Shown in pieces: positions 5,503 through 34,359 of a stretch of DNA of 64,000 nt. The stretch lies in assembly GCF_010994095.1 (NCBI RefSeq), contig NZ_WJYO01000002.1, forward strand, positions 558,001-622,000. Reading direction: 5' to 3'. A model generated the notes under the pieces. The model did not search any database and had not been told where the DNA came from. It saw nothing but the letters and a program-made list of their open reading frames with translations. Position 1 is the first letter of the stretch. Every line of letters begins with the position of its first letter. Both the position numbers and the translations under genes were made by a program. Origin of the DNA: Mumia xiangluensis (GTDB taxonomy: Bacteria; Actinomycetota; Actinomycetes; Propionibacteriales; Nocardioidaceae).

Positions 5503-5589
5503 CTGCCCCCCAGCGATCGATCTGCGGCTGTCCCGCTCGGCACACTACTCCCGAAGCCCCACAGCCGCTGACGGACGATACTGGCGGCC

Positions 5590-6729: not shown

Positions 6730-6739
6730 GCTCGCGGGC

Positions 6740-7711: not shown

Positions 7712-7741
7712 CCGCCGGCGCCAGGACGTGACCCGGCGAGG

Positions 7742-8413: not shown

Positions 8414-8423
8414 TGGTCAGCTC

Positions 8424-10838: not shown

Positions 10839-10853
10839 GAGCGTCGGACCTCC

Positions 10854-12563: not shown

Positions 12564-12606
12564 GTCGGTGCTCCTTGGAGGGCGGAGAGGAAGATGGACC
12601 GGATGT

Positions 12607-12786: not shown

Positions 12787-12808
12787 CTACCTCGAAGGAG
12801 CAATCCTC

Positions 12809-14059: not shown

Positions 14060-14074
14060 TCCACAGCCACTGAC

Positions 14075-14103
14075 GGCCGGGGAGCGTCGCTCGCTCCCCG
14101 GCC
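14075..14103 (+). terminator. Intercistronic hairpin between malE- and malF-like genes
   Basis: Perfect 12-bp stem (arm GGCCGGGGAGCG) with a 5-nt loop, starting 16 nt after the binding-protein stop. No U-run follows. Such hairpins commonly stabilise the malE message or partially terminate, giving more binding protein than permease. Confidence 0.7.
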
Positions 14104-14152
14104 GCCGTGCTTCTCCCCACCCTGCTGCCCCGCCCCTGGAGGACCCCGCCCC

Positions 14153-15745
14153 ATGACGCCCACCGACGAACGACGCGGTCTGCGGGCTCGCCTGAGCCGA
14201 CCCGGCGAGACCGACGGGCTGGTCGGGATCCTCGTGAAGATCGTGCTCCTGGGGCTGGTCGACGCGATCGCGATCTACGCGGTGTTCGTGCTCGCCGCGC
14301 AGGAGAAGTGGGCGGTCCTCGCCGTCGCGGTCGTCCTGACGGTCGGCGTCAACGTCGTCTACCTGCGGCGAGACGGTCTCCCCGCGAAGTACCTCGCACC
14401 CGGAATCACCCTCCTGCTGATCTTCCAGGTGTTCGTGATGGTCTACACCGGCTACATCGCGTTCACCAACGCCGGCGACGGCCACAACAGCACGAAGAGC
14501 GACGCGATCGAGGCCATCGCCACCAAGGGCCAGGAGCGCGTCCCGGACTCCCCCCAGTACCAGCTGTCGGTGCTCGAGAAGCGTGCGTCCCTCTGGTTCC
14601 TGGTCACCGCGCCCGACGGCACGGTCGCGCTCGGCTCGTCCGAGGAGCCGCTCGAGGAGGTCGACGACGCCGAGGTCGACGGCAGCGGCAAGGCGGTCTC
14701 CGTCGACGGCTACTCCACCCTGTCGTTCGAGGAGCTGCTCGACCAGCAGGACGAGATCCTCGCGGTCGCCGTCCCGGTGTCCGACAACCCGTCCGACGGC
14801 AGCCTTCGTACGGCAGACGGAAGCACCGCGTACGAGTACCGCTCCAACCTCACCTACGACGAGGCCGCCGACACGTTCACCGACACCACGACCGGCACCG
14901 TCTACCGCGACGGGGGCGAGGGGTCGTACGTGTCGGACGACGGCGAGGCGCTGGTGCCCGGCTGGAAGATCAACGTCGGCCTCGACAACTTCCGCCGAGC
15001 GGTCGAGACGCCACAGCTGCGCGACTCGCTCCTCGCCGTGATCGCCTGGACGTTCGTGTTCGCCACGCTGTCGGTCGCCCTGGTCTTCGGGCTCGGCCTG
15101 TTCCTCGCGATGGTGTTCAACGTCGCCAGCATGCGCGGCAAGAAGTTCTACCGGGTGATGCTGATCCTCCCCTACGCCTTCCCCGCGTTCCTGTCGGGCC
15201 TCGTCTGGGCCGGACTGCTCAACACCGAGTTCGGCTTCATCAACCAGGTCCTGCTCGGCGGCGCCGACATCGAGTGGCTGACCGATCCGTGGCTCGCACG
15301 GTTCAGCGTGCTGTTCGTCAACCTCTGGCTCGGCTTCCCGTACATGTTCCTCGTCTGCACCGGTGCGCTGCAGTCGATCCCGGACGAGATGAACGAGGCC
15401 GCTCGCATGGACGGCGCCAGCCCGTGGCGCGCGTTCAGGGCGGTGAAGCTCCCGCTGCTGCTGGTGTCGGTGGCGCCGCTGCTCATCACGACGTTCGCCT
15501 ACAACTTCAACAACTTCAACGTGATCTACATGCTGACGCGGGGTGGTCCTCGGTTCGAGGACACGACGAGCGACATCGGGGCTACCGACCTGCTGATCAC
15601 GATGGTCTACAAGGTCGCCTTCGGGACGGGCACGGGCCGTGACTACGGCCTCGCCAGCGCGCTCTCCATCATCATCTTCGTCGTCATCGGCGTCATCGCG
15701 GCGCTGCTCTTCCGCCGTACCACGGCTCTGGAGGACATCCACTGA
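14153..15745 (+). CDS. Maltose-type ABC transporter permease, MalF-like
   Basis: 530 residues. Three N-terminal helices (about 20-110), then a large extracytoplasmic insertion (about 115-280, acidic, including GYIAFTNAGDGHN) as in MalF, then the binding-protein-dependent permease domain with the EAA loop EMNEAARMDGASPWRAF (about 415). Partner of the MalG-like protein; the two genes overlap by 1 nt at 15745. No MalK/MsiK ATPase lies nearby, so a shared genomic MsiK-like ATPase is inferred. Confidence 0.92.
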   Translation: MTPTDERRGLRARLSRPGETDGLVGILVKIVLLGLVDAIAIYAVFVLAAQEKWAVLAVAVVLTVGVNVVYLRRDGLPAKYLAPGITLLLIFQVFVMVYTGYIAFTNAGDGHNSTKSDAIEAIATKGQERVPDSPQYQLSVLEKRASLWFLVTAPDGTVALGSSEEPLEEVDDAEVDGSGKAVSVDGYSTLSFEELLDQQDEILAVAVPVSDNPSDGSLRTADGSTAYEYRSNLTYDEAADTFTDTTTGTVYRDGGEGSYVSDDGEALVPGWKINVGLDNFRRAVETPQLRDSLLAVIAWTFVFATLSVALVFGLGLFLAMVFNVASMRGKKFYRVMLILPYAFPAFLSGLVWAGLLNTEFGFINQVLLGGADIEWLTDPWLARFSVLFVNLWLGFPYMFLVCTGALQSIPDEMNEAARMDGASPWRAFRAVKLPLLLVSVAPLLITTFAYNFNNFNVIYMLTRGGPRFEDTTSDIGATDLLITMVYKVAFGTGTGRDYGLASALSIIIFVVIGVIAALLFRRTTALEDIH

Positions 15746-21712: not shown

Positions 21713-21800
21713 GCAGCGCCCAGGTCTGCTCCGGCCGGCTTCGGCGCAACGGGGGTGCAACCCTTGTCGGGTTCGCGACCGGTGACCTACCGTCGTCGCA

Positions 21801-21818
21801 TGCCACCGGGGGGTGGCA
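21801..21818 (+). repeat. Perfect hairpin in the leader of the PAS gene
   Basis: TGCCACC (21801-21807), GGGG loop, GGTGGCA (21812-21818). It ends about 10 nt before the GGGGGAG ribosome site of the next gene, so it may affect translation or be an operator. No known family matched. Confidence 0.4.
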
Positions 21819-21841
21819 TGCCTGACTGCTCGGGGGAGCCG

Positions 21842-22411
21842 ATGAAGAATCACATGCCGTGGGGGCCGTCACCGGCGCTCGGCCACTACACCTACTGGCC
21901 CCACGCGGAGAAGTGGGAGTTCTCCGAGGGGATGTACGCGATTCTCGGGATCCCGGAGACGACACCCGTGACCACGGACCTCGTCCGTCGGCACCAGCAC
22001 CCTGACGACGCCGGCCGCACCGAGGTGGCGTTCGCGATGCGTGACCTCACCCATCCGGCCGACTACAGCTATCCGCACCGCATCGTCGACGCGCTGGGGC
22101 TCGTCCACGAGGTCGTCGTCGTCGGACGGATCGTCCCCGACGGCGGCGAGCTGGGCCCGCGGATCGACGGGTTCCTCGTCGACGTGAGCGAGGTCGGCGC
22201 CCATCCGGCCCAGAGTGCGCCGATGGTCCCGGTGGAGTTCGACGCCTCTGACCTCGTGATCACGCCGTGCGCGCACTGCCCGCAGTGGTGGGCGGAGATC
22301 GTCCCCTCGGGCGGGATCCAGGTGGTGCGGGAGTGGCACGAGCCCTACTGCCCCGAGGCGCTGCGCTGGTCGGTGCCGGAGCCGCCGATGTTGGCCCGCT
22401 GGGTGTCCTGA
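21842..22411 (+). CDS. PAS-domain protein with Cys-containing C-terminal tail
   Basis: 189 residues from ATG 21842 (GGGGGAG 4 nt upstream). A PAS_3-type fold covers about residues 18-125: KWEFSEGMYAILGI, VRRHQHPDD, YRIVDALG-like and a final GFLVDVSE strand. The tail has CAHCPQWWAEI and a further Cys in PYCPEALRW, three cysteines that could bind metal. No output domain, so a stand-alone sensor or adaptor. Partner unknown; neighbours give no clear hint. Confidence 0.7.
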   Translation: MKNHMPWGPSPALGHYTYWPHAEKWEFSEGMYAILGIPETTPVTTDLVRRHQHPDDAGRTEVAFAMRDLTHPADYSYPHRIVDALGLVHEVVVVGRIVPDGGELGPRIDGFLVDVSEVGAHPAQSAPMVPVEFDASDLVITPCAHCPQWWAEIVPSGGIQVVREWHEPYCPEALRWSVPEPPMLARWVS

Positions 22412-22433
22412 CGCTGGTGCTACGGTGGCGGCC

Positions 22434-23258
22434 GTGTCCGACTCGTCGCCCCCGCGCCCCGCTCATCCCACGCTCGCGGAGTACCGCGCGATCGCGCAGC
22501 CGCCTGAGGTGCGCAACCGGCGCAGCGCCGAGCACTGGGTCGCAGACGTCTACCTCCGTGACATCTCGCCCTACCTGAGCCGCCCTCTCGTACGCCTCGG
22601 GCTGAGCGCCAACGCGGTCACCGGGCTGATGATCCTGAGCGGGTGGGCTGCGGCCGGCTCGCTGTTGATCCCGGGACTGGTCGGCGTCGTCCTCGCCGTG
22701 TTCTTCGGCCAGCTCCAGATGCTGCTCGACTGTGCAGACGGCGAGGTGGCGCGCTGGCGCGGGACGTTCTCTCCGGCGGGCACGTTCCTCGACAAGATCG
22801 GCCACTACACGGCTGAGTCGCTGATCCCGATCGCGCTGGGTGTCCGCGCCGCGGGCGGGTTCGGCGACCTCGACGGGCACTACGGCTGGACGACCCTCGG
22901 CGCCCTGCTCGCCGTACTCATCCTGCTCAACAAGGCGCTCAACGACTTCGTCCACGTCTCGCGCACCTTCTCCGGCCTGCCGCGTCTGGCCGACAGCGCG
23001 GAGACGGCTGCGCCACGCCCGGGCCTGGTCGCCCGGCTGCGCCGCATCGCACGGTTCATCCCGTTCCACCGGCTGTACCACTCGGTCGAGCTGACCCTGC
23101 TCGCGCTCGTCGCCGCGATCGTCGACATCGTCGCCGGCTCGGCGTGGGGCGGGCTCGCCGGGACCCGCACCCTGCTCGTCGTGCTCCTGCCGCTGGCACT
23201 GCTCGCCGTGATCGGGCACTTCGTCACGATCATGGCGTCGTCACGGCTCCGGGCGTAG
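22434..23258 (+). CDS. CDP-alcohol phosphatidyltransferase-family enzyme (teichoic acid cluster)
   Basis: 274 residues with 5-6 helices. The CDP-AP motif reads DCADGEVAR, 8 residues, G, 3 residues, D, 3 residues, then His (residues about 101-126), so the fourth, proton-abstracting Asp of the family consensus is His here. Start chosen at GTG 22434, 7 nt after TACGGT (leaderless spacing). Transfers a phosphoalcohol from a CDP-alcohol to a membrane acceptor; beside teichoic acid genes it may prime or decorate the polymer. Substrate unknown. Confidence 0.8.
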   Translation: MSDSSPPRPAHPTLAEYRAIAQPPEVRNRRSAEHWVADVYLRDISPYLSRPLVRLGLSANAVTGLMILSGWAAAGSLLIPGLVGVVLAVFFGQLQMLLDCADGEVARWRGTFSPAGTFLDKIGHYTAESLIPIALGVRAAGGFGDLDGHYGWTTLGALLAVLILLNKALNDFVHVSRTFSGLPRLADSAETAAPRPGLVARLRRIARFIPFHRLYHSVELTLLALVAAIVDIVAGSAWGGLAGTRTLLVVLLPLALLAVIGHFVTIMASSRLRA

Positions 23259-23343
23259 GACGTCGTCCTCCACGCAAGACCTGCAGGAACGACGAACCAC
23301 CGTTCACGCATGACCAGACGGCCCGTGGCCTAGGATCGGCGGC

Positions 23344-24543
23344 GTGCACCGGTTCAGAAGGCTGGCCAGGATCGCCGCGCAGGCGCGCACGCAGGTCCGC
23401 AACCGGCTCGACCGCGGCTCGTTCGCGGCGCGCTGCAACACCGACCCGGCGGCGCTGGGCGCTCCCGTCGCGCTGTACTTCGCCGACGGCCCCGAGAACC
23501 TCTACCAGCTCCACCAGTGGGACCGCGTGCTCGCGGCGCTCCCCTGGCCCGTCGTCGTGATCGTGTCCCGCCCCGACACCGGGCGCCGGGTGCTCGCCGA
23601 GACGTCGCTCCCGGTCTACTTCGCGCCCGGCTCGACGTACCTCGAGGACCTCCTCGCGCACGGCACGCTCAAGACGGTCCTCTACGTGAACCACCTCCCG
23701 CTCAACTTCCGGATGCTGCGCTTCGCCTCACCGGTCCACGTACACCTCGGACACGGCGAGAGCGACAAGGATTCGAGCGTCACCAACCAGAACAAGGCGT
23801 ACGACCGGGTGCTGGTCGCCGGTCCGGCCGCGCGCGAGCGGGTGGCGGGCGCGCTGCGCGAGTTCGACGACGCGGCGCACGTGCGTGAGGTGGGCCGGCC
23901 GCAGCTCGACCTCGACTACCCGGGCGCGCCGGACTGGCCCGACGACGGCACGACCCGCGTGCTGTACGCCCCGACGTGGGAGGGCGACCGCGCGAGCATG
24001 GCGTACGGATCGGTGGCGTCCCACGGGGTCGCCCTGGTGTCGTCACTGGTCGCCGACCCCCGCTACCGCGTCATCTACCGCCCGCACCCGCGCACCGGCG
24101 TGCAGGACCCGGCGTACGCCGCCGCGGACCGTCGGATCCGCGCACTGCTCTCCGAGCACGGCGAGCGGCACCTCGTCGACGTCGGACCGTACGGCTGGCA
24201 GTGGGCGTTCGCCGACGTGTGCGTCACCGACCTGTCGTCGGTCGCCTACGACTGGCTGGCCACGGCGAAGCCGATGCTCGTGACGGTGCCGACGGAGCCG
24301 CGCACCACCCTGCCGCCGTCACGGCTCCTGGCCGAGGTCCCGCGGCTCCACGCGGCCGACGCCCCTCGTACGGCAGTGCTGCTCGACGGCGACTGGCCAC
24401 GAGACCGCATGCTCGCCCTGTCCGAGCACTACTTCGGCGACACCGCCGACGGGGCAAGCACGAGGCGGTTCCAGTCCGCACTCGACGAGGCGCTCAGGCT
24501 CGCGGACGAGCCGATCGGACCAGCTTCCGCAGCGCCGGAGTGA
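23344..24543 (+). CDS. CDP-glycerol/ribitol glycerophosphotransferase family (TagF/TagB-like)
   Basis: 399 residues. GT-B teichoic acid transferase motifs: LGHGESDK (about 138-145), YAPTWEGD (about 207), IYRPHPRTG (about 240) and VTDLSSVAYDWL (about 296). Peripheral membrane enzyme transferring polyol phosphate from a CDP-polyol. TAGGAT is 7 nt before the GTG start, so leaderless. Its 3' end overlaps the convergent pyruvyl transferase by 50 bp. Shorter than TagF, closer to a TagB-like primase; which polyol it uses is not clear. Confidence 0.88.
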   Translation: MHRFRRLARIAAQARTQVRNRLDRGSFAARCNTDPAALGAPVALYFADGPENLYQLHQWDRVLAALPWPVVVIVSRPDTGRRVLAETSLPVYFAPGSTYLEDLLAHGTLKTVLYVNHLPLNFRMLRFASPVHVHLGHGESDKDSSVTNQNKAYDRVLVAGPAARERVAGALREFDDAAHVREVGRPQLDLDYPGAPDWPDDGTTRVLYAPTWEGDRASMAYGSVASHGVALVSSLVADPRYRVIYRPHPRTGVQDPAYAAADRRIRALLSEHGERHLVDVGPYGWQWAFADVCVTDLSSVAYDWLATAKPMLVTVPTEPRTTLPPSRLLAEVPRLHAADAPRTAVLLDGDWPRDRMLALSEHYFGDTADGASTRRFQSALDEALRLADEPIGPASAAPE

Positions 24544-25747
24544 ACCGGTCCCTCTGGCGACGCGCAGCAGCCACCTCACCGACCGGCGGTGCGAAGGTCT
24601 TGCGCGCGATCCGTCGGTCGAACGCCTCGGCGCCGGCGGCCTGGCCCGGGTCGAAGACGTGCGACAGGCCGTGCGAGTGGAGGAACGCCGAGTAGCGCGC
24701 GAAGCGCTCGGCGTGCCCCGCGAGCAGTGGCCCCCAGTCGGCCTCCGCGTGCAGCGCGACCGCGTCGACGCCGTCGAACTCGACGTCGATCCGGCGGTGC
24801 GGGATCTCGTGGTAGCGCGCGAGCTCGAGGGTGCGGGCGTCGTGGGTCAGGACGTAGGCAGGCGTCCCGGACAGGAGTGCGGCGATGTTCCCGTGGATCC
24901 GGGTCCCGTAGGAGAACGGGAACGACTCGAGCGACGCCATCCAGGTCGGCACGTTCGTCGGGAACCGCGTCCGCCCGTCCGTGATCAGGGGGTGGTCAGG
25001 ATGGATCGGCAGGCGCTCGTCGATGACCGCGCGGTCGCTGGTGCCCTCCAGGAGCAGGTGGAGGGTCTCGAGGTCCTGCGCGAAGTAGACGAGCCCCGGG
25101 TAGCGCGCGACCTGGTCCTCGACGACGGGCGCCATCTGCGCCAGGTACGGCGACAGATTGAACGCGACGGGGCCTTTCGGGTCGAGCCTCTTCCGCGAGA
25201 GTCGGAGCGGGAGGCGGTCGCCGTGCAGGAACATCGACGGGCAGCCGATGACCTCGACGTGCTCGGATCCGAAGCCGAGTCCTGCGAGGTACTCGGCGGT
25301 CCACTCACCCCGGACCCCGATCGACGGCGAGCGGTCGAGCACGGCCCGGACGAAGCGGGTCACCGCGTCGCCGACCTGGCGCGGTGCTGCGACGCGCTGC
25401 CCGACGGCGGACTGGACGCCGACGCCGACGACCGTCACCGGGACGGAGAGCTGCTCGATGGTCTCGGTGATCGCGTCGAGGTTGGGCAGGAACCGTCTGC
25501 GGAACGCATTGGCCAACGGGATGACGACGTGGTCGTACTGGTCGTCGATCTCGGCGGGGCTGAGGGTCCGTGCCCGGTTGAGTCGCGCCACGTCGATCGT
25601 GGTGCCGGGCACCGACAGCGTGCGTTGGACCGCGTAGCTGAAGACCAGGTTGCCCACGTTGTTGCCGATGAGGTTGCGCGCGAGCACCCGCTCGGCGGTG
25701 GGAGCGGTGAAGGGGCTCTTGTGGGCCCGGATCAGCAACCTCGTCAC
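24494..25747 (-). CDS. Polysaccharide pyruvyl transferase family protein
   Basis: 417 residues, GTG start. Family features: GNNVGNLVFSYAVQRTL near the N-terminus, VVGVGVQSAVG, SIGVRGEWTAEYL, VIGCPSMFLHG, and YGTRIHGNIAALLSGTP toward the C-terminus. CsaB-like enzymes add pyruvate from PEP as a ketal to a sugar. In this cluster it would pyruvylate the glycosylated teichoic acid. Upstream 22 bp from the GT2 gene, same strand, so last gene of the unit that starts with the CDP-ribitol synthase. Confidence 0.85.
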   Translation of the reverse strand: MTRLLIRAHKSPFTAPTAERVLARNLIGNNVGNLVFSYAVQRTLSVPGTTIDVARLNRARTLSPAEIDDQYDHVVIPLANAFRRRFLPNLDAITETIEQLSVPVTVVGVGVQSAVGQRVAAPRQVGDAVTRFVRAVLDRSPSIGVRGEWTAEYLAGLGFGSEHVEVIGCPSMFLHGDRLPLRLSRKRLDPKGPVAFNLSPYLAQMAPVVEDQVARYPGLVYFAQDLETLHLLLEGTSDRAVIDERLPIHPDHPLITDGRTRFPTNVPTWMASLESFPFSYGTRIHGNIAALLSGTPAYVLTHDARTLELARYHEIPHRRIDVEFDGVDAVALHAEADWGPLLAGHAERFARYSAFLHSHGLSHVFDPGQAAGAEAFDRRIARKTFAPPVGEVAAARRQRDRFTPALRKLVRSARPRA

Positions 25748-25769
25748 GAATGTCTCCTAAGGCAGTCGA

Positions 25770-26756
25770 CTAACTCAAGAGGAAGCCTAACCCCCATGCC
25801 CCATGGAGCGTCACCATGGCCACCGGAAGGCGGCGCCGCGCCTGCGGATCCAGGTCGCGCCCCTCCCAGAGCGCCGCCGCGGAGACGCCTGCGAGATAGC
25901 CGGCCGGGACCGCGAGCCCGAGCAGCAGCCACGGCGTGGTGAACGCACCGATCACGCCGGCCGCGAGACCGAGCGACGAGGCGACCACCACGGCCGGTGG
26001 TGCGAGATAGCGCGCCGACGCCGTCTCCGGGTGGCGCTTGATCACCCTGCGGCGCCACCCGCCGGTGCGGTACTGCTGGGTCGCGAACGCCTTCCAGGTC
26101 TCGCGCGGGCGATAGGTGACGGCGACGTCGGGGAGGAACCACACCGTCTCGCCCGACTCGCGCAGCCGGAAGTTCAGCTCCCAGTCCTGGGCGCGGACGA
26201 AGTGCTCGTCGTAGCCGCCGATCTTGGCGAGCGCGTCGCGACGGAACGCCCCCAGGTAGACCGTCAGCTGCGGCCCAGCGACGCCGCCGGTGTGGAACGC
26301 CGCTCCTCCGATGCCGAACCGCGACGACATCGCTCGCGCCACCGCACGCCCGAAGGGACTCACACCCTCAGGCGCCATGCGGCCGCCGACGTTCGCCGCG
26401 CCGGTGTCGGCCAGCGCGGTCACGATCCGCGTCAGGTAGTCCGGCGGGAACAGGGCGTGCCCGTCGGCGCGGACGAGGTAGTCGTGCGTCGCAGCGGCGA
26501 TCGCCGCGTTGAGCCCCTGCGGGGTGAGCCCGGTGGGGTTGTCGACGATCGTCACGGTCGGATGCGCCGCTGCCAGCCCGTCGGCGATCTCTCGTGTCCG
26601 GTCGTGCGACGGACCGACGGCGACGACGACCTCGATCTCACCGGCATAGTCCTGGGCGAGGATCCGCTCGACGCACTCGCCGAGGTCACGCTCCTCGTTG
26701 CGCACGGTCATGAAGACCGACACCGGAGGCATCGATCCTGCGCGGTCGGTCGTCAT
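25770..26756 (-). CDS. Family 2 glycosyltransferase, membrane-anchored
   Basis: 328 residues. GT-A fold: VSVFMTVRNEERDLGECVER, DNPTGLTPQGLNAAI, the DxD-like VRADGHAL at about 97, and AQDWELNFRL with the acceptor-site ED-like motif at about 195. Two to three hydrophobic helices at the C-terminus anchor it. ATGA overlap with the upstream polymerase gene means translational coupling. Likely glycosylates or extends the linkage unit of the wall polymer. Confidence 0.88.
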   Translation of the reverse strand: MTTDRAGSMPPVSVFMTVRNEERDLGECVERILAQDYAGEIEVVVAVGPSHDRTREIADGLAAAHPTVTIVDNPTGLTPQGLNAAIAAATHDYLVRADGHALFPPDYLTRIVTALADTGAANVGGRMAPEGVSPFGRAVARAMSSRFGIGGAAFHTGGVAGPQLTVYLGAFRRDALAKIGGYDEHFVRAQDWELNFRLRESGETVWFLPDVAVTYRPRETWKAFATQQYRTGGWRRRVIKRHPETASARYLAPPAVVVASSLGLAAGVIGAFTTPWLLLGLAVPAGYLAGVSAAALWEGRDLDPQARRRLPVAMVTLHGAWGLGFLLS

Positions 26757-29700
26757 CGCAACCCTTCGTCGAGTGGACCGGCATCGATCAGGCGCCGTGC
26801 GGCGGACAGGAAACCGTCCGCGTACGAGCCTGACGCGAATTCGCCGAGGTAGTAGACCCGAGACGCCACCCGGTCCGCGACCAGCGGGTCGTCACCGAGC
26901 ATCGCGTCGATCGCGTCGTCGAGGTTCGCGAGGTTCCCGTCGATCACGTACGCCGCGCGCGCGGCGGGCGCTTCCTCGCAGAGCTGCTCGGGCGTACGGC
27001 CCACCGACACCATCGCGTAAGGCTTGCCCGACTGCAGGTAGTCGGAGACGACCGCCGACACGTCGGCCACCATCGCGTCCGAGGCGTTGAAGCAGTCCAC
27101 GACCGACATCGCTCCCTCGGCGGCCTCCCCCCAGAGGTGCTGCCGCCCCGTGCGGGCCTTGTCGCCGTCGAGGAGCGCGCCGATGCGGGCGATCGTCCGG
27201 GTGGCGTCCGGGAACCGGTAGTTGAACGGGTGGGACCGGAAGATCACCCGCGCGCCCCGGGCGAGCAGCGCGGCGACGATCTCCTCGCCGCGCGGCAGCG
27301 AGTAGACCTCGGAGTCGGCGTACGGCCCGCGCCAGGTCGGCGCGTAGAGCACGGTGCGGTCCTCGAGCGAGCCGATCGGCCCGCGTGCCGGCGCGATGTC
27401 CTCGACCTGCGGACGGCCGACGACCTCGAACTTGTCCGGCGGGATGGCGACGCCGTGGCGGGCATAGCGGTCGATGCCGGCCTGACCCGCCGCGAAGATG
27501 CGGTCGTAGATCGCGTGGACCGGGTTGTAGCAGGCAGGCTTCTCCGAGTCGCCGTGGTTGAGCCACACGTGGGCCATCTGCCGTCGCTCGAGGAAGTGCG
27601 TGTTGTTCGGTGCGTTGTTGACGTAGAACGCGGCCCGCATGCTCGGGACCACGACCTCCTGCAGGCTGCGGATGGTCGGCCGGTGGACGATCGGCGCCGA
27701 CGTGATGCCGTCGATCATGCGGAACATCGTCAGGTTGCGGGTGACGACGACGAAGGGGCGGCCCAGGCGCTCGAAGTACGGCATCCACATGCCGAGCTGG
27801 TACGGGGCGCCGATGTTCGAGCCGAAGTACACCGCGAACTCCGGCGCGTGCGCCTCCAGCGTCGCGTACAGGCGGTCCTCCGCGTCCACGCACCGGTGGA
27901 CGCGGGTCAGACCGACCACCAGCGAGACCAGCGTCGTCGCAGCGACGGCGACGGCAACGGCCACGAGCAGGAACGACCAGCCCGCCGCTCCGCAGATCCA
28001 CAGGGCGACGACCGCCACGATGTTGACGACCCCGACCGTCCCGCGCGAGACGACTTCGCGGATCTCGACCTTCAGCGTCGGCAGGTTCCGCGCCTCGAGG
28101 CCGACGCGCTCCCAGTTCTCGAAGACCGTGGACTCGGCCGCGGTCGCCGCGGCGACGGCCGCGAGGGCGGCGGCGACGGCCCACGACACGCCGTGCCAGT
28201 CGAACCACCCCACGACGAGCGCCAGGAGCAGGAGGATGCGTGAGATCTGCAGCGTGCCGGCGATCAGCGGGTACTGCGGGTTGCCGGGACGTGCCCGACG
28301 GTGCAGCGGCACGAACAGCGCCATCGTGACGAGCGTGACGACCAACGGCAGCGTCGGAGAGGAGCCGACGAGCGTGGCGACGAAGACGAGGAGCGCGAGC
28401 CCGCCCGTGACCACGTCGCGAGCGGCCACGGCCAGCTCTCGCCGGACGGCGCCCAGCGTGAGGCGGCCACCGCCGTCCTCGGTGTCGGCAGCCGCGGTCT
28501 CGTCGGCCGTGTGCTCACGGCGCGCGTCGATGATCTCGCGGGCACGGTCGACGAAGACGTCGGAGTAGCCGTCGGCCGCGAAGTCCCCGAGGTAGTCGGC
28601 GCGTACGGAACGTCGCTCGAGGGCGAGAGGGTCGTCGCCGAGGAGGGCGTCGAGCGCGACGTCGAGGTTCGCGGCGTCTCCCTCGATCACGTACGCGGCA
28701 GAGGCGATCGGGTAGTGCGCAGCGAAGTCCGATCCGTTCTCGGTCATCGCGGTCATCGCGAACGGCTTGCCCGAGAAGAGCCAGTCCACGACCACGCTCG
28801 AGACGTCGGAGACCATCGCGTCCGCGGCGTTGATGCAGTCGAAGATCGACATCGACCGCTCCGCGCGCTCGCCGTAGACGTGCTGGCGGCCGGTGCGCTC
28901 GGCATCCTCGCGGAGCAGCTGGTGGATCGCGCGGATCGTGTCGGTGTCGGTGTCGAAGCGGTAGCTGAACGGGTGTGGCCGGAACACCACCGTCGCGCCG
29001 CGGGCGAGCAGGCCGCGGACGATCGAGACCCCGATCGGCAGCGAGTGGTAGGCGGTCTCGTCGACATGACCGCGCCAGGTAGGGGCGTACAGCACCGTCG
29101 GCTTCTCGGGCACGGGACCGTCGAACCGATCCACGCCCTCGACCTGGGGCCGGCCGACGACGTCGAACTTCTCCCGGGGGATCGAGACACCGTGCGCGGC
29201 GTAGCGACGCACCGCTGCCTCACCGGCCGCGAAGATGCGGTCGTACATCGCGTGGGTCGGGTTGTACGAGGTCGGCTTGTCGGAGTCGCCGTGGCCGAGG
29301 AACACGTGCGTGATCTGGTTGTGGCGCACGAAGATGCTGTTGCCTGACGACGCGTTCACGTAGAACGCCGTCGTGAGCGACGGCACGACCACGTCGTCGA
29401 GATCGCGGGACCCGCGGCGAACGACGATCGGCAGATCGGTGTGCTCGGCCAGCAGCTCCGCCGGGAAGTTGTGACGGGCCACGATCAGCAGGCGGCGCTC
29501 CGTCCGCTGGAGGTACGGGAGCCACATCGTGACCTGGTGGGTGCCGTCCTCGGGCCACGCCGTGTAGACGACCGCCTCGGGGGCGTACCGAGTCACCGCC
29601 CCCGGGAGCTCGGCCTCGATCCTCCGGCCGGCGCGCATCCTGACCGCGGCGTTGATGCCCATGACGATGTCGGGGACTGCCGCGACCAGCGTCACCGCGG

Positions 29701-30244
29701 CCCACCAGACAACAGGCAGCCCGACGCCCGCGGCGACCGCACCGAACGCCAGCGCACCGAGGTGGGCAGCCGTCGCCGCCCCTTCCAGGTCGATCTGCTT
29801 CGGCGCCTGGGCCAGCCCGGGGACGTTCGAGACGAAGGTGACACGGTACTGGCGGGCCTGACCGAGGACCGGCTCAAGGACGACGACACCGATGCTGACC
29901 AGCGCGGCCAGCGACGCCACCCACACCGACGAGTCGCTCCACGCGACGAAGCAGACGGTGATGGCGGCGCCCACACCACCACGGATCGGGCCTGCGCGGC
30001 CGAGGAGGACCAGGTCCTCGGTCAGCGGCAGGTCGTCACGGCGCGTGAACCGCCACGCGTCGAACGCCAGTGCGGCGAGGCTTGCCAGCAGCAGGGCGAC
30101 GACCACGGAGTCCACCACGCCGGCCAGCGCCGCGGCTGCGGCGAGCACGACCGCTGCGGCCGTCCCGATCTCTGTCGCGGCATCGCCGATGCGCGCTGCC
30201 GTGACACGTCCCGCCTCCGGCGGAGCCAGCCCCGCGTCAGCCAT
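26753..30244 (-). CDS. Two-module TagF/TarL-like teichoic acid polymerase (tandem duplication)
   Basis: 1163 residues made of two similar halves with a period of 581 residues. Each half has several membrane helices (about 25-200 and 605-780) followed by a CDP-polyol glycerophosphotransferase domain. Module 1: GHGDSDK 317-323, YAPTW 386-390, RPHP 422-425, SDVSSVVVDWL 479-489. Module 2: NHGDSEK 896-902, YAPTW 967-971, RSHP 1003-1006, ADVSAVVSDYL 1060-1070. Module 2 changes two family positions (P to S, S to A). Starts 8 bp inside the CDP-ribitol synthase, so it probably polymerises ribitol phosphate. A bifunctional primer/polymerase is the natural inference. Confidence 0.88.
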   Translation of the reverse strand: MADAGLAPPEAGRVTAARIGDAATEIGTAAAVVLAAAAALAGVVDSVVVALLLASLAALAFDAWRFTRRDDLPLTEDLVLLGRAGPIRGGVGAAITVCFVAWSDSSVWVASLAALVSIGVVVLEPVLGQARQYRVTFVSNVPGLAQAPKQIDLEGAATAAHLGALAFGAVAAGVGLPVVWWAAVTLVAAVPDIVMGINAAVRMRAGRRIEAELPGAVTRYAPEAVVYTAWPEDGTHQVTMWLPYLQRTERRLLIVARHNFPAELLAEHTDLPIVVRRGSRDLDDVVVPSLTTAFYVNASSGNSIFVRHNQITHVFLGHGDSDKPTSYNPTHAMYDRIFAAGEAAVRRYAAHGVSIPREKFDVVGRPQVEGVDRFDGPVPEKPTVLYAPTWRGHVDETAYHSLPIGVSIVRGLLARGATVVFRPHPFSYRFDTDTDTIRAIHQLLREDAERTGRQHVYGERAERSMSIFDCINAADAMVSDVSSVVVDWLFSGKPFAMTAMTENGSDFAAHYPIASAAYVIEGDAANLDVALDALLGDDPLALERRSVRADYLGDFAADGYSDVFVDRAREIIDARREHTADETAAADTEDGGGRLTLGAVRRELAVAARDVVTGGLALLVFVATLVGSSPTLPLVVTLVTMALFVPLHRRARPGNPQYPLIAGTLQISRILLLLALVVGWFDWHGVSWAVAAALAAVAAATAAESTVFENWERVGLEARNLPTLKVEIREVVSRGTVGVVNIVAVVALWICGAAGWSFLLVAVAVAVAATTLVSLVVGLTRVHRCVDAEDRLYATLEAHAPEFAVYFGSNIGAPYQLGMWMPYFERLGRPFVVVTRNLTMFRMIDGITSAPIVHRPTIRSLQEVVVPSMRAAFYVNNAPNNTHFLERRQMAHVWLNHGDSEKPACYNPVHAIYDRIFAAGQAGIDRYARHGVAIPPDKFEVVGRPQVEDIAPARGPIGSLEDRTVLYAPTWRGPYADSEVYSLPRGEEIVAALLARGARVIFRSHPFNYRFPDATRTIARIGALLDGDKARTGRQHLWGEAAEGAMSVVDCFNASDAMVADVSAVVSDYLQSGKPYAMVSVGRTPEQLCEEAPAARAAYVIDGNLANLDDAIDAMLGDDPLVADRVASRVYYLGEFASGSYADGFLSAARRLIDAGPLDEGLR

Positions 30245-31643
30245 TCGTGATCGCCGCGGGGCCGCTCTCGCGTCGGATGTCGATGACGTGACCGGTCTGC
30301 GAGGACAGGAGGACGTCGAGCGACTGACGGGCGACCTCGTCGGACGAGAGCAGGGTGCCTGCCGGCTCGTCGCCGAAGGCCTTGGTACGCATCGGCGTGC
30401 CGGTGCGCTCCGGGTTCACGCAGTTGACCCGGACGGAGCCGGACCACTCGTCGGCCAGCGCCTGGGTGAGGTTCACGACGGCTGCCTTCGCCGACGAGTA
30501 GAGCGAGTAGCCCGAGCGCCCGCGGGTGTACGACGACGAGGTGAACAGGAGCAGCGAGCCGGAGGTCTCGGCGAGGTGCGGGTAGAACTCCTGGGCGATG
30601 AAGATCGGTCCGAGGTAGTTGACCTCGGTCGCGTTGTAGATCGTCTCCTCGCTGGTCTCCGCGAGCGGGGCGATCGGCAGGACGCCGGCGGTGTTGACGA
30701 CATAGTCGACGCGGCCGGTCTTCGCGAGGACGGTCTCCGCGGCGGCGCGGACGTCGCCGCGTCGCTCGACGTGGGTGTCCGTGGCCGATCGCGAGAACGA
30801 GAAGACGTGGGCGCCGGCACGCTCGGCGATCGCGGCGATGTCTCCCCCGATGCCGTACGAACCCCCGAAGACCACGACCGTCTTGCCCTCGAGCGCTGCG
30901 ACCTGCTCGGCCTCGCTCAGGGCGTCCGGACGCTCGGCCGAGGCGAGCTGGAAGAGCTTGTCGGCGATGTAGACGTCGATCGGCTCGGTGACCTTCATGT
31001 TGCGCTCGTGACCGTCGACGACCGTGATCGGGACGCTCGGGTTGTAGCGAAGGACCACGGTGCAGTCGTCGGTGGCGACGAAGTCGGGGTCCTTGTCAGC
31101 CTCGGCGTACGCCGCGCGGATCACCGACAGGCGGAACGCCTGGGGGGTTTGCCCCCGTCGCAGGAGGTGACGCGGGAGGACGTCGGAGATCGTGCCCGAG
31201 TCCTCGTGGACCTGCACGATCGTGTCCGCGGACGGGATGACCGTGTCGACCGCCTCGTACTCGTCGAGGGCAGCGACGACGTCCTCGATGATCGTCTGGG
31301 ACACCAGCGGGCGCACCGCGTCGTGCAGGAGGACGTTGCACTCCTGGTCGCCGAGCGCGGCGAGGGCGCGCTGGGTGGTGGCGTTGCGGGTGTCGGCGCC
31401 CTCGAGGACCTGGGTGACCTTGTCGTAGCCGCCGCTGCGCACGATGGCACGGATGGGGTCGAGGTGCCCCGGCGTCATCATCACGACGATCTCGTCGATC
31501 AGCGGGGAGGCCTGCATGGCGGCGATCGTGTGCTCGATGATCGGCTTGCCGGCGATCTTGATCAGCTGCTTCGGGATCGAGAGCCCGACTCGGGTCCCGA
31601 CACCGCCGGCGAGCACGACGGCCACGTTTCGCATCCTAGTCAC
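30237..31643 (-). CDS. Bifunctional ribitol-5-P cytidylyltransferase / ribulose-5-P reductase (Bcs1/TarIJ-like)
   Basis: 468 residues. N-terminal half (about 1-230) is an IspD/TarI-type cytidylyltransferase: VVLAGGVGTRVG, PKQLIKIAGKPI, HDAVRPLVS, TDDCTVVL. C-terminal half (about 240-460) is a short-chain dehydrogenase: VVFGGSYGIGGDIA cofactor loop, VNTAGVLP, and catalytic YSLYSSAK (Tyr-x3-Lys). Same order as Haemophilus Bcs1/Acs1, which makes CDP-ribitol from ribulose 5-phosphate. GTG start 7 nt after TACCCT, leaderless. First gene of the reverse teichoic acid unit. Confidence 0.9.
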   Translation of the reverse strand: MTRMRNVAVVLAGGVGTRVGLSIPKQLIKIAGKPIIEHTIAAMQASPLIDEIVVMMTPGHLDPIRAIVRSGGYDKVTQVLEGADTRNATTQRALAALGDQECNVLLHDAVRPLVSQTIIEDVVAALDEYEAVDTVIPSADTIVQVHEDSGTISDVLPRHLLRRGQTPQAFRLSVIRAAYAEADKDPDFVATDDCTVVLRYNPSVPITVVDGHERNMKVTEPIDVYIADKLFQLASAERPDALSEAEQVAALEGKTVVVFGGSYGIGGDIAAIAERAGAHVFSFSRSATDTHVERRGDVRAAAETVLAKTGRVDYVVNTAGVLPIAPLAETSEETIYNATEVNYLGPIFIAQEFYPHLAETSGSLLLFTSSSYTRGRSGYSLYSSAKAAVVNLTQALADEWSGSVRVNCVNPERTGTPMRTKAFGDEPAGTLLSSDEVARQSLDVLLSSQTGHVIDIRRESGPAAITNG

Positions 31644-31713
31644 GACCTAGAGGGTAACTTGTCGGACGAGACACGAGCCCCAGGGTGCGCGTGGATCACT
31701 TTGTTCGCGCGCG

Positions 31714-31756
31714 TACAGTAGGCGTGCTACGCGGGGGTCCGTCCCCGACGGGACGG
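31714..31756 (+). promoter_or_regulatory. Promoter and hairpin leader of the TagGH genes
   Basis: TACAGT at 31714-31719 is a plausible -10. The leader then contains a perfect hairpin, CCGTCCC (31739-31745), CGAC loop, GGGACGG (31750-31756), ending 21 nt before the ATG. The hairpin may protect the mRNA or tune translation. Confidence 0.45.
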
Positions 31757-31777
31757 GGATCCGGACGAAAGGGACCG

Positions 31778-32590
31778 ATGGTCGACTCGAGCTACACGCG
31801 GTCGCCCGTTGCGCGGATGCGCGCGATCTGGGGCGCCCGTAAGATCCTGTTCCTCCTCGTGCGGCGCGACCTGAAGGTCCGGTACGCCAACTCCGTCCTC
31901 GGCTACATGTGGACGGTGCTCGACCCGCTGCTGATGAGTTTCGTCTACTGGGCGATGTTCAGCATCCTCTTCGCCCGCAACGTCCCCGGTGACGACCCGT
32001 ACATCGTCTTCCTGCTGGCGGGCATGCTGCCCTGGCAGTGGTTCAACAGCACTGTCTCCCAGAGCGCCAAGGCGCTGCGCAGCTCGTCGCGGCTGATCCG
32101 CTCCACGAACCTCCCCCGCGAGATCTGGATCCTGCGCGTCGTCGCGTCGAACGGCGTCGAGTTCCTGTTCTCGATCCCCGTGCTCGCCGGCTTCCTCATC
32201 GCCTACCAGGTGCCCCTGCACTGGAACATGCTCGTCACGTTCCCCCTGGCGATCGTGCTGATGGCGGTCCTGCTCACCGGCATCGGGCTCGGGTTGAGCG
32301 TCCTCACCGTGATGGTCCCCGACCTGGATCGTCTGGTGAAGATCTTCCTGCGCCTGTTCTTCTACGCGTCGCCCGTCCTCTACTCCGTGACCAAGCTTCC
32401 GCCAGACCTGCGGTGGGTCTATGTCGCGAACCCTGTGGCGGACATCCTCCAGATGTTCCGCTCGGGGATCTTCCCGCATTACCTCGAGTGGACCCATGTC
32501 GGCTACACCGCTGTGGTCTCGCTGCTCGTGCTCGCCCTCGGATGGTGGCTGTTCGCGCGGCTCGAGCGCACCGTGCTCAAGGAGCTCTGA
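31778..32590 (+). CDS. tagG: Teichoic acid ABC exporter, permease subunit
   Basis: 270 residues from ATG 31778 with GAAAGGGA upstream. ABC-2 family: six helices, N-terminal LLVRRDLKVRYANSVLGYMW typical of Wzm/TagG, and FFYASPVLYSV in the second half. Forms the membrane channel that flips undecaprenyl-linked wall polymer outward. Divergent from the CDP-ribitol synthase and 3 bp before the ATPase gene. Could export another polymer in principle, but the neighbours argue for teichoic acid. Confidence 0.92.
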   Translation: MVDSSYTRSPVARMRAIWGARKILFLLVRRDLKVRYANSVLGYMWTVLDPLLMSFVYWAMFSILFARNVPGDDPYIVFLLAGMLPWQWFNSTVSQSAKALRSSSRLIRSTNLPREIWILRVVASNGVEFLFSIPVLAGFLIAYQVPLHWNMLVTFPLAIVLMAVLLTGIGLGLSVLTVMVPDLDRLVKIFLRLFFYASPVLYSVTKLPPDLRWVYVANPVADILQMFRSGIFPHYLEWTHVGYTAVVSLLVLALGWWLFARLERTVLKEL

Positions 32591-32593
32591 CCT

Positions 32594-33448
32594 GTGACCG
32601 AACCCATCATCTCCGTCCAGGACATCTCGATCCGGTTCCACCGGTCGCGTCGTCACCGGAGTCTCCGCGACCTGCTGTTCAAGGGTGAGTCCGGCGTCCG
32701 AGCCGGCGAGTTCTGGGGCCTGCGCCACATCTCGTTCGACGTGCAGCCGGGCGAGGCGATCGGCGTGGTCGGCCGCAACGGTCAAGGCAAGTCGACGCTG
32801 CTCAAAACCATCGCGGGCGTCCTCATCCCCGACGAGGGCCGGGTCAACGTCAACGGCGGCGTCGCGCCGCTGATCGAGATCACCGGCGGCTTCGTCGGCG
32901 ACCTGACGGTCCGCGACAACATCTACCTCGCCGCGGGCCTGCACGGCATGGGCAAGAAGCAGATCGCCGCCTCGTTCGAGGAGATCGTCGAGTTTGCGGA
33001 GATCGAGGACTTCGTCGACACCCCGTACAAGCACCTGTCCTCCGGCATGAAGGTGCGCGTCGCGTTCAGCGTCGTCTCGCGGCTCGACGAGCCGATCATG
33101 CTCGTGGACGAGGTCCTGGCGGTCGGTGATCGCGCTTTCCGCGAGAAGTGCTTCGAGCGCATCGACGAGATGCTCTCGCAGGGCCGCACGCTGTTCATGG
33201 TGTCGCACAGCGAGGCCAACCTCACGCGCTTCTGCACGCGCGGCCTCTATCTGCGCGAGGGCACGCTCGTGCTCGACGGCCCGATCCAGGAGGTCGTCGA
33301 CCAGTACTTCAGCGACTCCGGCGACGAGGCCGCGCTCCGCCGCCGCCACGAGCGCAGGATGCGCAGGATGCGCCGGCTCGGGCTCCTCAACGAGGAGGAC
33401 GAGGAGGAGGACGACGGCGACGAGGACAACCTCCGTACCGTCGTCTGA
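32594..33448 (+). CDS. tagH: Teichoic acid ABC exporter, ATPase subunit
   Basis: 284 residues, GTG start. Walker A VGRNGQGKST at about 60-68, Q-loop near ITGGFVG, signature HLSSGMKVRVA, Walker B IMLVDEVLAVGD, H-loop VSHSEA. The C-terminus after about residue 250 is a short Arg- then Glu/Asp-rich tail; no Wzt-type carbohydrate-binding domain. Drives export through the TagG-like subunit. Confidence 0.93.
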   Translation: MTEPIISVQDISIRFHRSRRHRSLRDLLFKGESGVRAGEFWGLRHISFDVQPGEAIGVVGRNGQGKSTLLKTIAGVLIPDEGRVNVNGGVAPLIEITGGFVGDLTVRDNIYLAAGLHGMGKKQIAASFEEIVEFAEIEDFVDTPYKHLSSGMKVRVAFSVVSRLDEPIMLVDEVLAVGDRAFREKCFERIDEMLSQGRTLFMVSHSEANLTRFCTRGLYLREGTLVLDGPIQEVVDQYFSDSGDEAALRRRHERRMRRMRRLGLLNEEDEEEDDGDEDNLRTVV

Positions 33449-33449
33449 C

Positions 33450-33470
33450 CGCAGGCGGCACCCGCCTGCG
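33450..33470. terminator. Hairpin between convergent tagH and GT2
   Basis: CGCAGGCG (33450-33457), loop GCACC, CGCCTGCG (33463-33470); 2 nt after the tagH stop and 4 nt before the end of the reverse gene, so it can serve both strands. No U-run, as usual in actinobacteria. Confidence 0.65.
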
Positions 33471-33474
33471 CACC

Positions 33475-34359
33475 TCACACGACCGGGGGCCTCCAGCGGC
33501 GCGTCATCACGAGGACCGTCCGCCACCGCATGGGTCGGCGCGGCCCCGGATCCGTGCGCCATCCCTCGCGCCAGCCCGCGAACCACGGGCGAAGCGACCG
33601 TCGCCCGCCCGCGGACCGGACCCCGCGGACGACAGCGACAGCCGTCCAGGTGGCGACGTACGCCCAGGTGAAGGGCCAGCGCAGGTTTCGGCGGGCGAGC
33701 CACACGCGGTTGCGGGCGTTCAGCCGGTAGTAGTAGTCGTGGCGTGCCGGATCGATCGCCGGGTGCTCGCAGCTCAGGTCTCCGCGGTACCAGACCTCGT
33801 AGCCGGCGTCCCAGACCCGCCACGCCAGCTCGATGCCCTCGTGGGCGTAGAAGTACTCGTCACCCCATCGCCCCGCGGCGTCGAACGCCGTCCGACGGGC
33901 GACGAGGACACCCTCCCAGAGCGAGAAGACCGGCGACGACCGCGTCGGGTCGCCCTTGCGCATCCGGGGGATCCATCGGGTCGGCGCCTCCTCCCCCGGG
34001 CTCTCGACCCGGGGTTGGACGACCCCGAGCCGCGGGTCCGCCGCGAAGAGGGCCGCGGCACGCGCCAGGAAGTCGGTGTCGGCGAGGCGCGCATCGTCGT
34101 CGACGAACAGCAGAAGGTCTCCCGCGACGTGGGGCACGCCGGCGTTGCGCCCTGCGGGGATGCCGAGATTCTCCGGCAGCGCGACGGTCGCGACGCCGTC
34201 GGGGAGACCTGTCGGCTCCCAACCGTTGCCGACGCACACGACCTCGACGTCGACTCCCTCCTGCGCGAGAACCGATTCCAGGGCAGCCCGCAGCTCGGCG
34301 GGGCGCTTCCCCTGGGTGAGGACGACGGCTCCGACTCGGGGGCGTACGGCGGTGGTCAC
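33475..34359 (-). CDS. Family 2 glycosyltransferase (rhamnosyl/galactosyl type)
   Basis: 294 residues from GTG 34359, which lies 7 nt after TACGGT; upstream codons are not gene-like. VGAVVLTQGKRPAELRAALES, VCVGNGWEP, NLGIPAGRNAGV, then DDDARL (DxD) near residue 93 and EGIELAWRVWDAGYEVWY with the base-containing motif near residue 190. One hydrophobic stretch near residue 240. Probably a sugar transferase of the teichoic acid or wall galactan. Convergent with tagH. Confidence 0.85.
   Translation of the reverse strand: MTTAVRPRVGAVVLTQGKRPAELRAALESVLAQEGVDVEVVCVGNGWEPTGLPDGVATVALPENLGIPAGRNAGVPHVAGDLLLFVDDDARLADTDFLARAAALFAADPRLGVVQPRVESPGEEAPTRWIPRMRKGDPTRSSPVFSLWEGVLVARRTAFDAAGRWGDEYFYAHEGIELAWRVWDAGYEVWYRGDLSCEHPAIDPARHDYYYRLNARNRVWLARRNLRWPFTWAYVATWTAVAVVRGVRSAGGRRSLRPWFAGWREGWRTDPGPRRPMRWRTVLVMTRRWRPPVV

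Follow-up and report, generated by a model that had tools for sequence, protein, structure and literature searches.

What does a bacterial gene cluster make when it sets ribitol-phosphate genes beside a pyruvyltransferase? Such a cluster lies at positions 22425–34359 of the window, the 64,000-nucleotide stretch that we analyzed from the genome of Mumia sp., a soil actinobacterium of the Nocardioidaceae. It contains an IspD-SDR fusion, two TagF-family proteins, two family 2 glycosyltransferases (GT2a and GT2b), a pyruvyltransferase, a CDP-alcohol phosphotransferase and an ABC exporter; every gene named in the original prediction is therefore present, as judged by Pfam profile matches. The original interpretation is largely upheld: we assign a probability of roughly 0.6 to the proposal that the product is a wall teichoic acid of the poly(ribitol phosphate) type with pyruvate ketals. 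Gene identities, operon structure, fold, motif and residue conservation, co-occurrence and the absence of the pyruvyl gene from one relative were computed directly.

Gene content and organization of the cluster

Third-position GC is 0.89–0.94 in the first eight genes of the cluster and 0.88 in the trimmed gt2b gene, so these ORFs behave like real genes. Two further named Mumia records (L038 and L039) retain the same gene set at 74–92% identity, which rules out a chance assembly. The genes for the synthase, TagFL, GT2a and the pyruvyltransferase form a tightly packed minus-strand operon, in which synthase and TagFL overlap by 8 bases, TagFL and GT2a overlap by 4, and 22 bases then precede the pyruvyl gene. 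A divergent intergenic region, read from the sequence, separates this operon from the exporter genes (31644–31777, with the exporter start taken as ATG 31778).

The IspD-SDR fusion (30237–31643, minus strand) is a predicted bifunctional CDP-ribitol synthase that joins an IspD/TarI-family cytidylyltransferase domain (PF01128, 1.4e-47) to an SDR reductase (PF00106, 2.6e-30) in one protein of 468 amino acids, an arrangement comparable to the domain order of Haemophilus influenzae Acs1/Bcs1. In the PDB, the best match of the IspD half is the ribitol-5-phosphate cytidylyltransferase TarI (6xhp; 6.2e-31, 111 bits), with IspD (2xwl, 102.5 bits) trailing by less than 9 bits. Among NCBIfam models, ispD scores best on this half (172.8 bits; cut-off 181.3), ahead of D-ribitol-5-phosphate cytidylyltransferase (151.3 bits; cut-off 166), and neither reaches its cut-off. 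The cytidylyltransferase half thus appears, narrowly, to be nearest to the solved TarI enzymes. At E 0.001 the genome yielded no further IspD-family protein, so the fusion may also serve isoprenoid synthesis; a match at C3:279001, considered as a housekeeping IspD, was dropped because by eye its ORF begins like GlmU, and rough patterns gave no convincing CarD/IspD/IspF-like motif in 26 genome stretches (~531 kb, overlaps included).

Two TagF-type proteins had been predicted. Two PF04464 proteins are indeed encoded, but they hold three TagF-like catalytic halves, as the larger protein, TagFL (26753–30244, minus strand; PF04464 in two stretches, 4.5e-20), is a tandem duplication of a unit combining membrane segments with a catalytic half. 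The TagFL halves are 51% identical over 375 residues, its eight hydrophobic segments fall into two groups and its motifs read HGDSDK and HGDSEK; it is likely to be the ribitol-phosphate polymerase. TagFs (23344–24543, plus strand; 399 amino acids; PF04464, 9.1e-10) carries an HGESDK motif and no hydrophobic (membrane) segment, and is perhaps the priming transferase. All three halves match only about positions 186–293 of PF04464 and represent a divergent branch. A TagF profile matched Cps3D (8qoy, 2.4e-8), TarL (8va1, 5e-6) and TagF (3l7i, 0.033) in the PDB, where a single-sequence search with the large TagF found nothing at E 1. The AlphaFold model of TagFs (pLDDT 87.4) retrieved TagF (3l7l, 4.5e-10) and TarL (8va1, 6.7e-10) among GT-B proteins in a Foldseek list headed by UDP-GlcNAc 2-epimerases. 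Because general GT-B proteins also head the list for the pyruvyltransferase model, fold alone cannot name the substrate.

The candidate catalytic histidines H137 and H248 (TagFs numbering), equated with His residues of CroT/TagF from motifs, are invariant in 12 of 12 rows. The window type reads HG[DE]S[DE]K in all 46 homologous ORFs, as against the HGTP of glycerol-phosphate polymerases, and three TagF ORFs at the genome's other locus retain HGTP[LF]K. Pro447 of TagF is reported to be conserved in glycerol-phosphate transferases but not in ribitol-phosphate transferases, for which Gly is given at this position (PMC10299916). The window type has neither, reading Ser in 46 of 46 ORFs; the residue of TarL itself does not appear in the excerpted text of PMC11666461. 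Ribitol-phosphate polymer synthesis, as originally predicted, is supported at the level of sequence.

Two plus-strand genes encode a TagG-like permease (31685–32590, likely start ATG 31778; PF01061, ABC2_membrane, 6.4e-20) and a TagH-like ATPase (32594–33448; PF00005, ABC_tran, 1.4e-20). The best NCBIfam model is the capsule permease KpsM for the former, far under its cut-off, and NF010065, teichoic acids export ATP-binding subunit, for the latter (5.2e-57, under its cut-off). The original prediction had also suggested looking for TagO and TagA elsewhere in the genome. There are two PF00953 genes, MraY in the mra cluster and one of TagO/WecA type beside the atp operon (neighbors named from their ORFs), but a genome search for a TagA-type ManNAc transferase (PF03808) at E 0.001, whose controls matched in 7 of 14, gave none. 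Some other enzyme, GT2a or GT2b perhaps, would therefore need to finish the linker.

A pyruvyltransferase with a conserved putative PEP site

The polysaccharide pyruvyltransferase (24494–25747, minus strand; 417 amino acids) is encoded by the last gene of the operon and is the sole PF04230 match in the genome (1.9e-17; 64.6 bits against a cut-off of 25.3). Pvg1p (5ax7) ranks first of 999 chains aligned to its model (pLDDT 92.2), with Z 15.8 and rmsd 3.5 over 253 residues; GT-B epimerases tie with it at Z 15.1, and the fold therefore does not separate the pyruvyltransferase from other GT-B enzymes. A single-sequence search of the PDB found nothing at E 1, and a profile search likewise found nothing.

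The putative PEP-site residues R146, R283, H285 and R305 are the same in all 97 aligned rows, the window among them, with R305 lying twenty residues beyond the R283-x-H285 pair. For CsaB, the PEP-site residues are reported as R148, R306, H308 and K328, and an Arg at K328 lowers kcat about eightfold and leaves the enzyme active (PMC10435577); our residues were matched to these by motif spacing rather than by alignment to CsaB. The Mumia protein thus shares with CsaB and Pvg1p the Pfam family, the GT-B fold and the spacing of PEP-site Arg/His residues. The acceptors differ, being ring sugars for CsaB and Pvg1p, whereas for the Mumia enzyme we predict an acyclic polyol phosphate.

Co-occurrence and natural absence among relatives

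Of 80 pyruvyl gene loci, 39 also contain both halves of the fusion. For the other 41 loci, IspD-SDR is present elsewhere in the genome in 29 of 39 genomes, and all four genomes of the group that is sister to the Mumia pyruvyltransferase in our tree carry it elsewhere. No IspD-SDR was seen in the remaining 10 of these 39, so the pyruvyltransferase family must have other acceptors too. Within the Nocardioidaceae, the fusion occurs in 45 of 49 pyruvyl-positive genomes versus 36 of 148 pyruvyl-negative ones, a difference whose Fisher p is inflated by shared ancestry. The two genes are apart in most family genomes, lying within 6 kb of each other in 9/45 and within 20 kb in 13/45.

Within the genus, all six genomes carry the fusion as well as the CDP-alcohol gene, and the block could be read in five genus genomes or look-alikes (the window, L038, L039, L133 and L140). 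One of the six genus genomes retains the cluster without the pyruvyltransferase, which marks pyruvylation as a separable tailoring step.

A counterpart in Nocardiopsis metallicus

The teichoic acid of N. metallicus was reportedly described by Tul'skaya in 2014 as a 2,4-pyruvyl 1,5-poly(ribitol phosphate). According to a review, every ribitol of the 1,5-poly(ribitol phosphate) that forms the major wall polymer of this species bears a 2,4-pyruvate ketal (PMC6801904); the predicted polymer, originally called unusual, had thus already been described chemically. The genome of strain DSM 44598 contains one IspD-SDR at 1e-60, 60–66% identical to the window's halves. Both of its PF04230 proteins lie in the same short gene row as the fusion, as does one of its two PF04464 places, and the ATG of the TagF-like gene overlaps the synthase stop.

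This gene match is the decisive context for reading the Mumia cluster, and the pyruvyl step is supported by it as well as by family, fold and operon position. The two systems agree in predicted backbone and substituent and in a core of IspD-SDR, TagF-like protein and pyruvyltransferase. They differ in that the N. metallicus locus has two tandem pyruvyltransferases and one TagF-like gene, then an AT3-SGNH acyltransferase; searches of this locus gave no counterpart of GT2a, of the CDP-alcohol transferase or of the exporter, and pyruvyl and synthase identities to Mumia are 45–66%.

Discussion

We propose that the IspD-SDR fusion would reduce ribulose 5-phosphate to ribitol 5-phosphate and convert it to CDP-ribitol, from which TagFs and the double-headed TagFL would build up the chain by placing ribitol phosphate on a lipid-linked primer and elongating it. 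The pyruvyltransferase would then use phosphoenolpyruvate to form a ketal, most likely bridging ribitol O2 and O4 by analogy with N. metallicus. Finally, the TagGH-like ABC exporter would move the chain out, and a putative LCP-type ligase could attach it to peptidoglycan. The substrates, the order of steps, the pyruvate position and the wall attachment of the polymer in this scheme are those that we infer.

A possible but doubtful alternative keeps the ribitol-phosphate backbone and moves the pyruvate: GT2a (25770–26756, minus strand; PF13641, 8.7e-25; two C-terminal hydrophobic segments) would add a sugar branch, and the pyruvyltransferase would ketalate that sugar, for example at positions 4,6 of a hexose. 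Most characterized pyruvylated polymers carry the ketal on a sugar, and Pvg1p acts on galactose. In Mumia, GT2a, whose start overlaps the TagFL stop, lies between the polymerase and the pyruvyl gene, only 22 bases from the latter in one operon, and it adjoins the pyruvyl gene in L135 and L140; it was not found in the N. metallicus locus. Sugar acceptors are also reported for N. halotolerans, whose teichoic acid contains 4,6-pyruvylated GalNAc (PMC6801904), and for CsaB, which acts on ManNAc (PMC10435577). The two genes nevertheless part company in both directions: L133 and L134 have GT2a but no pyruvyl gene, and the pyruvyl gene abuts IspD-SDR in L138 and L139, where no GT2a homologue was found, as none was in five Nocardiopsis loci.

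Ketals on the ribitol itself remain our preferred reading, and two further alternatives question the ribitol. The fusion could make another CDP-polyol (of mannitol or arabinitol, for example), in which case the pyruvylated polyol-phosphate chain would be built from that polyol instead. A teichoic acid of pyruvylated mannitol phosphate is reported from Brevibacterium iodinum (PMC6801904), SDR specificity is unreadable from sequence, and Ser replaces Gly in the transferase motif; we nonetheless consider another polyol improbable, as the best structural relatives of the fusion are ribitol-5-phosphate cytidylyltransferases and the N. metallicus fusion goes with a ribitol-phosphate polymer. More improbable still is a reading in which the IspD half does the housekeeping work of isoprenoid synthesis and the genes around it have come together without any shared function. 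The best NCBIfam score and the lack of another IspD-family match would fit such a role, but the half is fused to an SDR, is tightly coupled with TagF-type, GT2 and pyruvyl genes and is present in all six genus genomes, with the block read in five genus genomes or look-alikes, and the 116 of 197 family genomes in which the full fusion is absent at 1e-60 (some genomes being incomplete) need isoprenoids too.

Better-known systems share parts of this design. Like Staphylococcus aureus TarIJL (TarL, 8va1), the Mumia cluster is predicted to make and polymerize CDP-ribitol and has a TagH-like exporter; it differs in its fused IspD-SDR, duplicated, membrane-anchored and divergent TagF halves and pyruvate, and no TagA was found in its genome. 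H. influenzae Acs1/Bcs1, a bifunctional CDP-ribitol synthase (PMC4873967), together with Bcs3 offers the same combination of synthase, TagF-like ribitol-phosphate transferase and ABC export, but in a Gram-negative capsule with ribose and, as far as known from the sources available, no pyruvate. In the Firmicute Tetragenococcus halophilus, the ribitol teichoic acid genes, named tarIJL by the authors who described them, are followed by a putative pyruvyltransferase gene, and those authors already pointed to N. metallicus (PMC9045211, in excerpt); we liken this system to Mumia by description, without sequence comparison.

More broadly, we would put at even odds the proposal that an actinobacterial pyruvyltransferase branch ketalates open-chain ribitol phosphate instead of a ring sugar and has repeatedly joined or left CDP-ribitol cassettes (in Mumia, Nocardiopsis, Micromonosporaceae, Streptomyces and Propionibacteriaceae), giving a first gene assignment for actinobacterial pyruvylated ribitol teichoic acids. 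What is new is this actinobacterial assignment; the polymer chemistry and the Tetragenococcus pyruvyltransferase beside tarIJL were already known. Our literature search found no paper linking a pyruvyl transferase with ribitol teichoic acid, or actinomycete genomes with pyruvylated teichoic acid. The excerpted review treats actinobacterial pyruvylated wall polymers mainly as chemotaxonomic markers of unknown function and gives no genes for them (PMC6801904). The matching genes of N. metallicus supply candidates for the biosynthesis of a polymer that had been studied chiefly as a chemical structure. If the proposal is true, pyruvyl transfer extends to an acyclic acceptor. A strain of known chemistry, a small operon and a Mumia relative missing only the pyruvyl gene would open to experiment, in soil bacteria, both the biosynthesis and the function of the extra negative charge, whether in cation binding or in recognition by lectins, toxins or phages.

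Two genes at the cluster's edges call for comment. The CDP-alcohol phosphotransferase-like membrane protein (22425–23258, plus strand; 277 amino acids; PF01066, CDP-OH_P_transf, 1.6e-6) has five hydrophobic segments, and in the window and four homologues its motif ends DKIGH or DKLAH, with His in place of the last Asp of the family motif. We rejected it as a core component of ribitol polymer synthesis: at E 1e-30 no more than 9 of the 197 family genomes contain it, and it is also present in Cellulomonas alba (L088), whose genome lacks IspD-SDR at 1e-60. GT2b (33475–34359, minus strand; 294 amino acids after trimming the start from the longest ORF; PF00535, 1.2e-11) is a candidate linker glycosyltransferase, 84–89% identical in four other Mumia-type loci (L038, L039, L133 and L140), 74–75% in L134 and L136 and 64% in the C. 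alba locus.

Organization of the cluster and proposed pathway

All genes named in the original prediction, which read this region as a candidate pyruvylated poly(ribitol phosphate) wall teichoic acid cluster, are present by Pfam, NCBIfam and ORF calls (window on contig C2, 558001–622000, GC 71%; genome 4.62 Mb in nine contigs). Read from the ORFs, they form three transcription blocks. Block A (+) encodes a CDP-alcohol phosphotransferase (22425–23258) and TagFs, a short TagF-like protein (23344–24543). Block B (−) comprises the IspD-SDR fusion (31643–30237), TagFL, a long TagF-like protein (30244–26753), the family 2 glycosyltransferase GT2a (26756–25770) and the pyruvyltransferase (25747–24494); by called ORF starts, fusion and TagFL overlap by 8 bases, TagFL and GT2a by 4, and 22 bases separate GT2a from the pyruvyltransferase. 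Block C (+), an ABC permease and ATPase, is followed by a second family 2 enzyme, GT2b (33475–34359, −). Two other Mumia loci (L038, L039) hold the same genes at 74–92% identity; the genes are also present in G005 (L140), one of the genomes assigned to the genus (G001–G005). The closest named relatives in the pyruvyl search (best 80 of 328 relatives) are Mumia sp. zg.B17 and Mumia quercus, both Nocardioidaceae. Upstream of block A, a protein lacking a Pfam match (21755–22411) has counterparts in G005 (84%) and G003 (51%), both from the genus.

In our best reading of the order of events, CDP-ribitol would be made first, TagFs would prime, TagFL would extend the chain, a pyruvyl group would be transferred from PEP on the cytoplasmic side, and the ABC transporter would export the polymer. 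The priming enzymes expected elsewhere in the genome were recovered in part: a TagO/WecA-type enzyme probably starts the primer, but no TagA was found in the genome, and we therefore infer that the second linker sugar may come from GT2b or GT2a. The trio of GT2b, TagFs and the CDP-alcohol gene recurs at L088 (Cellulomonas alba) and L136, two loci that lack the fusion; block A plus GT2b may thus serve more generally to make primers. At L136 (genome G185, 4938–9509), homologues of GT2b, GT2a, TagFs and the CDP-alcohol transferase accompany a stand-alone IspD-like protein (38% identical), and the locus has no SDR fusion, an arrangement that suggests a sister cassette using another CDP-polyol.

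The pyruvate ketal may sit either on ribitol or on a sugar added by GT2a. G003 retains block A, IspD-SDR, TagFL, GT2a, the exporter and GT2b, and gave no pyruvyl match; only 83 bases lie between its TagFs and GT2a ORFs, with no convincing pyruvyl gene remnant in that gap. G030, from another genus, likewise has the fusion, GT2a, TagFs and the CDP-alcohol gene, with the pyruvyl gene absent. Judged from these gene contents, the pyruvyl step can be separated from the rest of the pathway, and GT2a has its own function.

A chemical anchor in Nocardiopsis

L072 comes from the genome record of Nocardiopsis metallicus DSM 44598, which we take to be, like VKM Ac-2522T, the type strain. The major teichoic acid of VKM Ac-2522T is a 1,5-poly(ribitol phosphate) in which every ribitol bears a pyruvate ketal at positions 2 and 4 (PMC6801904). 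At L072, an IspD-SDR ends at 7881, where it meets a TagF-like gene with the motif HGDSDK and a candidate ATG at 7878; next come two pyruvyltransferase ORFs (9878–11416 and 11539–13080). Genome-wide, N. metallicus has one IspD-SDR (1e-60), two PF04230 proteins, both in this locus, and two PF04464 places, one of them here; by elimination, L072 is thus the best candidate for the pyruvylated polymer. Fusion, TagF-like and pyruvyl genes also share loci in N. alba, N. listeri, N. flavescens and Nocardiopsis sp. MG754419. Directly 3′ of both N. metallicus pyruvyltransferases lies an AT3-SGNH acyltransferase (13336–15474), and an ORF whose beginning is similar is likewise downstream in N. listeri (L065, 11698–13821).

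The polymer class is already known. In T. halophilus, a putative pyruvyltransferase follows tarIJL, and N. metallicus is cited there (PMC9045211). Our literature search, with most subscription journals outside its coverage, found no actinobacterial genes assigned to a pyruvylated ribitol polymer; the main text of a Streptomyces ribitol teichoic acid paper, so far as available, makes no mention of pyruvate (PMC13274773).

Association of the fusion with the pyruvyl gene

Among the best 80 of 328 relatives from the pyruvyl search of genome contigs, 39 loci contain both fusion halves, leaving out two with one weak half. The other 41 loci represent 39 genomes, of which 29 carry the fusion elsewhere (one in two pieces, one with stops) and 10 gave no match at 1e-60, in a search that also took in two Nocardiopsis control genomes. 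On a quick tree with long branches flagged, and counting only rows that are linked or both long and unlinked, 11 changes are needed to account for linkage. In the sister group of the Mumia enzymes on this tree (L041, L051, L055, L074), the genes are unlinked or the contigs short, and all four genomes have the fusion. Across 197 family genomes, 81 have the full fusion (excluding seven single-domain matches), 49 the pyruvyl gene and 45 both; with the largest genus set aside, the fusion is present in 15 of 17 pyruvyl-positive genomes. Counting against the association, the two genes lie within 6 kb in only 9, and within 20 kb in 13, of the 45 genomes with both.

Individual enzymes

Bifunctional cytidylyltransferase/reductases that convert ribulose 5-phosphate to CDP-ribitol are known from H. 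influenzae (Acs1/Bcs1; PMC10299916, PMC4873967). For the N-terminal half of the fusion, a PDB search placed ribitol-5-phosphate cytidylyltransferase 6xhp first (111 bits), with plain IspD structures close behind (102.5 bits). Against a ribitol assignment, the NCBIfam ispD model scored above the ribitol model, both under their own cut-offs. No other IspD-family protein was found in the whole genome (E 0.001), which leaves the isoprenoid cytidylyltransferase missing, unassembled or replaced by the fusion; a second IspD-family match was rejected, as its ORF is GlmU-like.

TagFs has no hydrophobic segments, and TagFL consists of a tandemly duplicated module of membrane segments plus a TagF-like half. 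A profile from 12 such halves matches Cps3D (2.4e-8), TarL (5e-6) and TagF (0.033). Glycerol-phosphate transferases conserve the Pro447 of TagF, and ribitol-phosphate ones have Gly instead (PMC10299916). A scan of 46 homologous ORFs, using a pattern that permitted Ser, Gly, Pro or Ala there, gave Ser in all 46 (HG[DE]S[DE]K, 48 occurrences); the window type therefore lacks the glycerol signature, yet also lacks the published ribitol residue.

Contig C1 (1–45000; L014–L016) carries a second teichoic acid locus, whose TagF domains are canonical. Of its six distinct PF04464 stretches, read from profile matches, three TagF ORFs carry HGTP[LF]K and HGTP was not seen for the remaining three. It includes an exact tandem repeat with two TagF ORFs (7489 bases compared, offset 8741). 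Contig C8 (L017–L019) duplicates the beginning of C1 in inverted orientation, identical over the first 9000 bases compared, and thus looks like assembly redundancy.

The pyruvyltransferase is the sole PF04230 match in the genome, and its AlphaFold model is good (pLDDT 92.2). Yeast Pvg1p tops 999 aligned chains (Z 15.8), in effect a tie with GT-B epimerases (15.1). R146, R283, H285, D303 and R305 are identical in all 97 aligned rows (94 different sequences). CsaB binds PEP through R148, R306, H308 and K328 (PMC10435577); the window enzyme, matched by spacing alone, has the same R-x-H and a basic residue 20 further on.

Only 9 of the 197 family genomes have the CDP-alcohol phosphotransferase (E 1e-30). 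Judged by what we take to be the family motif, its last aspartate is His in all five proteins compared (22425–23258 of the window, L038, L039, L043 and L088).
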